Below, one piece after another: positions 10,201 through 13,200 of a DNA stretch of 64,000 bases; position 1 is the stretch's first letter, and each line of letters begins with the position of its first letter. Source of the DNA: Aldrovandia affinis. Its lineage: Eukaryota; Chordata; Actinopteri; Notacanthiformes; Halosauridae. Under the pieces are notes generated by a model. That model saw nothing but the letters and a program-made list of their open reading frames with translations. It was not told the DNA's origin and did no database searches. A program made the translations under genes and the position numbers. The stretch lies in the NCBI GenBank assembly GCA_029706075.1, contig JAINUG010000039.1, forward strand, positions 2,397,001 through 2,461,000, in the 5' to 3' direction.

Positions 10201-13200
10201 CCCAGAGGCTGGGGGACAAGGTGAAGCTGGAGAGAGCGGTCTACAGCATTGACCAGAGTGGCGATGGTGTGGTGGTGAGGACGCTCAACCAGGAGATCTT
10301 CCAGGTGAGAGACCCCCCCCCCCAGATGTGATATCAGATTCCCTAGCTGGCTCTCTCGATCTCTAGCCACCCCTATGTTTTTTTTTGGCAACGTGATCTC
10401 CTGCTTTCCCTTCACGCCCTGCTTTCCCTAGGTCGTCAGTGTAAATTACAAATCAGTTCTCATTTGACCTTCCTAGTTCAATAGAGGTTTATGAATAAAT
10501 AATGTATTTCAGTGGCGAGAATCCTCCCATCCTGCAACGGTGTCACTTAGCAATGAAACTCCACCCACTCTGTAACGGTGTCACTTAGCAATGAAACTCC
10601 ACCCACTCTGTAACGGTGTCACTTAGCAATGAAACTCCACCCACTCTGTAACGGTGTCACTTAGCGATGAGACTCCACCCACTCTGCAAGCGATGAGACT
10701 CCACCCACTCTTCAACGGTGTCACTTAGCGACAAGCCTCCACCCACCAAACCGCACGAACGCTCCCGCAGCCAGTCAGTGCTCAGTTGGCGAGATCCGTG
10801 CGGAGACTCACCTTTTCCCCCTAGCTCACGCTTGTGGTAAGCCAGGAAGTTTTGAATCAATAACACTGTCCTCATCTCACTCCCCTGGCTGTTTCCTCTC
10901 GTCCCCTGATGGAGCTCATTAGCCACTGCAGCAGGGCTGCCTTACCCAGCAGGCTAGTGTGTGTGTGTGTGTGTGTTAAAGTGTGTAAGGAAGGTCTGTG
11001 AGATCTATGCCCAGGTCCTGGGCACAGAAGAGGCCTGAGGTTTTGAATGAGCTTGTAAAGCCTCTCTGTTAAATTTCAGGCCAAATACGCCATCATTGCC
11101 ACACCCCCGGGGTTGAACCTAAAGATTCACTTTAACCCCTCGCTGCCGCCCATGAGAAACCAGCTCATCCACCGTGTGCCCATGGGCTCCGTCATCAAGT
11201 GCATGGTCTACTACAAGGAGAACTTCTGGAGGAAAATGGGTAGGGGGCAGTGTTGTGTTGTTAATGGTTCAGGTATCAGGCTTGCAGCTCCCAAGGGTTG
11301 CAGGTTTGATTACGAGGTGGGACACAGTCATTGTACCTTTGAGCAAGGCACTTAATCAGAGTTGCTTCGGAAATATCCAGCTGTATATGAATATTTTATG
11401 GATAAAAATGCCTAAATGTAAATGTTGGGACCCACACATACACACACACACACACTGACGCGCACGCACGCACACACGCACACACACACACGGCTGTGAG
11501 TTTTTTCTCTACACCAGTGGTTCCCAAACTTTAACACAGACTTTAACACAGTGCAGGTTTGGTCCTTTATTTGCTTTGCCTTTGAACTCTTCATTTCTCA
11601 CAAATGGTTTAGTTTCAATGACCAGGTGTCCACACATTCAACATGTAGGATCTCACCGATTTCAGCTGTAGGTCTATCAATAAGTCAGTTAAATAGACGT
11701 ATTATAGTCTATTTATATAGACTTTCATAGTTATAGAAAATGAAAGCATTTGTTGTCTGAGAGCTGATCTGACAGATTAAAAGCCGTTAAACGAGTATTG
11801 AATATTCATCATTTGTAACATGAATGCCTGACATAATATGGCATTAAGAAGGTAAATCATCCCTCATTAGAAATTAAAAGTGTCTTATTAAAAAGAATTA
11901 AGAGCTTGTCATACTTCAGGAATTGCAATGATGAATGCAAAGGAAACCAGGATACATGGGAGCGCCCCAGGGCCAAGTTTGGGAACCCCTGTGCTACACC
12001 AAAGCGTATCGCCGCTATAACATTAGTTGGTAGCTTTCTACTTCAAACTGCGTTCATAAAAGATCCAAACGCAATGTTTGTCAGCAAAGATGAGCCTATA
12101 GATTCAATGTTTCTGCATGCTGCCTTCAACCATGAAATGGTGTTATGGGCTGTTTGCAACCTTATGTACCCTGACTCTAAAACGGGGGTGCCCAAACCTA
12201 TTTGAGAAGGACCGGTGTGGGTGCACACTTTTGCTCTAGCCCAGCACTACAACAACCGATTTAACTAATCAACTAATCATGGTCTTCAATCAAGACCTTG
12301 ATTAGTTTAATCAGGCGTTTCAGTGCCGGGCTAGAACAAAACCTGCGCCCACACTGGTCCTTTCCAGATAAGATTGGACACCCCTGCTCTAACCCACGAC
12401 CACTGGTGTACAGGTTAATTCGAGAGGAACTGGCAATTCCTCTCTGTAGAAGCTCAAATTGCCTCAGCTCAAATTACCTCAGCATTCCACTTATAGCTGT
12501 GTAGAGACCGACTCATTGACAAGAACGGTCAGTAATGGAGATACTCCAGCCGTGTTAAGCTGCAGCAATCACTGCATAGGGTGATATTGAGTCATTATAT
12601 ATGAATGAAAGTTGAACCCGCACACTGTGTGTAAAAAGAGGGAATATCCCAAAACGAGGCAAAGGCTCGATGTACAATTCAAAAGTCTTTTAATCCATAA
12701 AAATGAAACAGAGGATTTAAGAGACAAAAAAGACAGACGTTTCGGTCAAATGACCATCATCAGTATGACATCGAGCACACGAGAGCAGAGTTAAGTATTC
12801 ACATTGCATCCAAATTGTTTAATTGGCATCACCTGCAGACGTATATGTCATTAGACCAGGCGATTGAGTCATCCAATCATCCATGGGGCTTTCTCAGGTA
12901 ACTGTATGGTCACATGTGGTTTTCTCAGGTTATTGTGGCAGTATGGTGATCGAAGAGGAAGAGTCTCCCATTGGCTTGACTCTGGATGACACCAAACCTG
13001 ATGGGACTGTCCCTGCTATCATGGGGTGAGTATGTAGTCCAGTCAGGCAGTAAATGATGTCATGCTGCAGTGAAGATGTGCAGGTCTGTGACATCACAGT
13101 TTGATTGAGCTGAACCTTCCTGCTCCTGTGTTGTAGTTTCATCCTCTCCAGAAAAGCCCGGAGGCTCGCAGGACTGACCAAGGAAGAAAGGTGAGTCCGG

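Follow-up and report, generated by a model that had tools for sequence, protein, structure and literature searches.

In the human germline, templated insertions have been reported in numbers, some of them from several templates; complex events numbered 33 in one individual and 26 in another in PMC8421209. RNA has been proposed as the template for related insertions in PMC5110952, where class 2 TSIPs are described as having distant source loci and are thought to be largely RNA-derived; the experimental ones measured 73-414 bp, with a median of 191.

Here we describe a short copy of a coding exon of mao within an intron of the same gene in Aldrovandia affinis. The window, by which we mean the whole stretch of DNA that was analysed, is 64 kb long and comes from a 6.2 Mb contig; the genome measures 1.22 Gb. 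The mao copy resembles the microhomology-mediated templated insertions (MMB-TI) of the human germline, as described in PMC8421209, in being a short copied tract, with an edge that may be of microhomology size, but its source is a coding exon at a distance of 2.7 kb and the copy is 8% diverged. Like the class 2 TSIPs outlined in PMC5110952 it has kept its donor and has neither poly(A) nor target-site duplication, whereas in comparison to them it is local and only 50 bp long. It also recalls the small, local, replication-linked copying described for short-range template switches in great apes (PMC7954356); those were found in a multi-species alignment, whereas the mao copy comes from one genome. 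The literature that we found consists of general papers, and none of them was on the exon 11 copy itself.

A partial copy of mao exon 11 in intron 7

The gene encodes a monoamine oxidase of the vertebrate type. We set the limits of exons 7-14 by their splice sites, and the 264-residue translation matched MAO-B chains of the PDB over its whole length (best E-value 3.2e-130). All features of this gene given here are on the forward strand. Exon 7 (window 10155-10304) ends in phase 0 and exon 8 occupies 11080-11239. Exon 11 (13653-13710), with a translation matched to MAO-B chains, is 58 nt long and has consensus splice sites on both sides.

In an ungapped comparison across the 64-kb window, positions 10995-11036 in intron 7 were identical to positions 13664-13705 in exon 11 at 40 of 42 bases, whereas the runner-up places for this 42-base core reached 22/42 on the forward strand and 24/42 on the reverse strand. 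The preliminary description had reported a 95%-identical copy of 42 bases, and this count was upheld. However, the true match is longer and slightly less identical, as BLAST lengthened it to 10987-11036 against 13656-13705, with 46 of 50 bases identical and without gaps (92%). The E-value of the 50-base match was 3.4e-11 when the window was searched and 1.4e-11 genome-wide. As a control, 261 kb of reversed sequence yielded 35 chance hits, of which none (0/35) combined a length of at least 38 with an identity of at least 86%. The intronic copy of a piece of exon 11 is real. The copied piece corresponds to nucleotides 4-53 of the 58 in exon 11 and includes neither of its splice sites; copy and source have the same orientation, with 2,620 bp between them. 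The copy ends at 11036 and the acceptor of exon 8 follows 43 bp past it, as had been described, and the translation given earlier for the copy was also correct, with a TGA at 11036-11038 closing it.

When 141 bases spanning the copy were used to search the 1.22 Gb genome, two places came back, namely the copy itself and its source in exon 11. As would be expected of a local templated insertion, the tract has a unique matching donor that is still in place, and a widespread repeat unrelated to mao, which the preliminary description had considered, was not what the search gave. A dispersed repeat was rejected on these two matches, with the reservation that the search may overlook weak ones (the 87% identical partner of another local pair went unreported); weaker extra copies of the exon 11 fragment could exist.

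A protein search of the genome gave 16 matches, some of them to exons of another, diverged mao gene, which lies on contig C2011. This second mao-like gene lies at G000:C2011:2099296-2106846 (loci L034, L025, L031, L030, L029), and its tblastn matches to exons 7-14 show approximately 41-78% protein identity, the match to exon 14 being weak (E 0.013). It retains SGGCYT, which we take to be the motif with the flavin-binding cysteine. Its exon 11 is identical to the copy at 30 of 50 bases and to exon 11 at the same number, and the paralogue was rejected as the donor. At the four sites where copy and exon 11 differ, the paralogue has the base of the copy twice and that of exon 11 twice, and therefore cannot tell which of them changed.

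Edges, divergence and splicing context

The flanks of the copy were compared with what adjoins exon 11 in the genome and after splicing, and none of the four comparisons scored above shuffled flanks (fractions of 300 shuffles reaching the flank score 0.49, 0.96, 0.22 and 0.73). The earlier statement that the flanks share nothing with the surroundings of exon 11 holds in these comparisons, but the left edge of the copy (10975-10994) calls for some caution. Within it, GTGTGTAAGGAA matches at 11 of 12 bases a 32-bp minisatellite in intron 10 (13424-13631) that ends 21 bp upstream of exon 11. The resemblance is marginal, as it was equalled by 34 of approximately 3000 random 20-mers and by 57 of 1500 purine-ended ones and several comparisons were tried, and as a sequence likeness it is suggestive only. 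If it is real, a strictly exon-only copy does not fit; the description of the copy as exon-only is correct for the matched piece, which lies wholly inside exon 11, but less certain for this edge. The left edge also has AAGGA in common with exon 11, and AAGGA/GTAAGGAA is a candidate microhomology, short and marginal.

In the 40 bp after the copy the longest run of A is 3. When the flanks were inspected directly, neither a target-site duplication of at least 5 bp nor any abutting direct repeat of more than one base was present; the 5-base word TAAAG occurs in both 30-bp flanks, though not right next to the copy. A class 1 TSIP or LINE-mediated retrocopy was rejected on the missing poly(A) tract and target-site duplication. 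Tandem or whole-exon duplication was likewise rejected, as only nucleotides 4-53 of 58 are present and both the acceptor and the donor of exon 11 are absent. A larger duplication with decayed flanks was rejected because, with the copy at 8% divergence, its flanks would be expected to remain alignable, whereas they were no better than shuffled ones in 4/4 comparisons.

The divergence of 8% (4/50 differences) has a 95% interval of 2-19%. If neutral rates of 1-4e-9 per site per year are assumed and all change is assigned to the copy, the implied age is approximately 6 to 222 My for the 50 bases; for the 42-base core it is approximately 1 to 182 My. This range fits neutral drift, so neither recency nor conversion is required. 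That the copy had to be recent does not follow, since 2-19% divergence is compatible with a few million to more than 100 million years of drift, and maintenance by conversion would not be needed.

Splice sites were scored with consensus frequencies and not with MaxEnt, which is rough, as the real donor of exon 8 receives 0.9. The true sites of exons 7-14 scored 1.9 to 6.9 for acceptors and 0.9 to 8.5 for donors. Acceptors inside or abutting the copy scored from -0.7 down to -13.9, and the donors from the copy to exon 8 reached -1.9 at most. The top-scoring upstream acceptor, at 10953, reached 3.0 as compared to 3.6 for exon 8's own acceptor. Its use would extend exon 8 by 127 nt, and the start of this hypothetical extended exon (10953-10979) would run into a TAA at 10977-10979, which precedes the copy. 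Donor-like sites at 10980 (2.2) and 10993 (1.6) scored above exon 8's own donor, and they would define an exon of 28 or 41 nt followed by an intron of 99 or 86 nt. A tiny alternative exon upstream of the core is conceivable, and it would omit the 42-base core. For the frame of the copy to be read from exon 7 to the TGA at 11036 an acceptor at 10982, 10994 or 11015 is needed, and all three score poorly. Coding or cassette-exon use of the copy was rejected on this rough scoring. It is correct, as had been pointed out, that inclusion of the copy would truncate MAO, but with such poor splice signals this stays hypothetical. We regard the copy as most probably silent intron sequence.

Local pairs and other repeats around the gene

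We counted local pairs of 38-300 bp with at least 86% identity and 100-20,000 bp apart in 261 kb around the gene (this region includes 3,500 N, all outside the window). In total 37 pairs were within these limits, and five of them, the mao copy included, also passed low-copy and complexity filters. One of the five has a third copy in the region and resembles a transposon end, one has 18 mostly short matches, and three look single-origin. By this count short local duplications are not rare here, about one per 50-90 kb. The exon as donor is the less usual feature of the mao copy.

Two further direct pairs were observed. The first comprises 66 bp at window 52403-52468 and 53330-53394, with 89% identity and a spacing of 862 bp; many short places match a part of it, and it may belong to a repeat. 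The other, at L008:5505-5559 and 5824-5878 outside the window, is 55 bp long, 87% identical and 265 bp apart, and it is the pair for which the genome search gave the query itself only. The window also holds a long imperfect inverted repeat (48761-49117), which is self-complementary over approximately 350 bases at about 70% and has a 67-bp direct repeat inside. An Rfam scan of the window gave four UnaL2-type LINE 3' tails (2732-2785, 52557-52609, 62581-62634 and 62698-62751) and two tRNA-like hits. The last two tails are in opposite orientation and lie within a self-complementary stretch at 62424-62906. Tails of the UnaL2 type would agree with an eel-like (elopomorph) fish.

Origin of the copy

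The copy is probably a neutral local templated insertion, which we regard as its best explanation. Of the origins proposed in the preliminary description, templated filler fits best, as the copy is local, in the same orientation as its source and low-copy, with non-homologous flanks, and as comparable low-copy pairs occur elsewhere around the gene. The event would have started with break repair or a stalled fork in intron 7, beside a (GT)n tract. A DNA end may then have primed on the purine-rich microhomology (AAGGA/GTAAGGAA) approximately 2.7 kb downstream, and some 42-50 bases of exon 11 would have been copied in direct orientation, possibly after a prior hop from the adjacent minisatellite. 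The end would have returned to intron 7 shortly before the acceptor region of exon 8, and the copy would then have drifted as neutral intron sequence with no exon use. We infer microhomology-mediated template switching or end-joining fill-in as the route, and likewise the role of microhomology and the neutrality of the copy.

A local donor picked at random would probably be wholly exonic in a minority of cases, which leaves room for an RNA template. Reverse-transcribed mao RNA could have filled the break, as in a class 2 templated sequence insertion; the matched piece lies entirely inside exon 11, and experimental templated insertions are described as enriched for transcribed sequence and lowered by reverse-transcriptase inhibitors (PMC5110952). 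However, the copy contains no exon-exon junction, its flanks are unlike the spliced neighbours, and its left edge is, if anything, like intron 10. We therefore hold such an mRNA- or cDNA-derived patch to be unlikely, even though the missing poly(A) and target-site duplication count against a LINE-type retrocopy and not against this route. That the gene's own spliced or nascent mRNA mended its own intron and left an exon-limited scar appears slightly less likely still.

Selection or gene conversion could also have kept the two sequences alike because the copy works as a poison extension of exon 8, as a small alternative exon or as a splicing regulator. Such a function would agree with the score of the acceptor at 10953 (3.0 as compared to 3.6 for that of exon 8), with the premature stop on inclusion, and with the donor-like sites at 10980 and 10993 that beat the donor of exon 8. 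But the 10953 acceptor and the 10980 donor are outside the copy and the 10993 donor is at its left edge, so that any exon built from them omits the core; the acceptors in or abutting the copy (at most -0.7) and the donors from there to exon 8 (at most -1.9) are poor, and the divergence requires no constraint. We consider this reading very improbable, and no less so an assembly error, which had been raised earlier, or a chimera; nothing in the analysis spoke for either. The copy differs from its source at 4/50 bases, the window is without N and the contig measures 6.2 Mb, while from a mis-assembly one would expect near-identical sequence repeated together with its flanks.

As a neutral local templated insertion, the copy would be one clear, low-copy example of a small local event in which the donor happens to be a coding exon, and scars of this sort stand out once their donor can be recognised. 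Given that a single mao is usually ascribed to fishes, the retained mao duplicate merits a tree. The copy alone changes nothing about MAO function.
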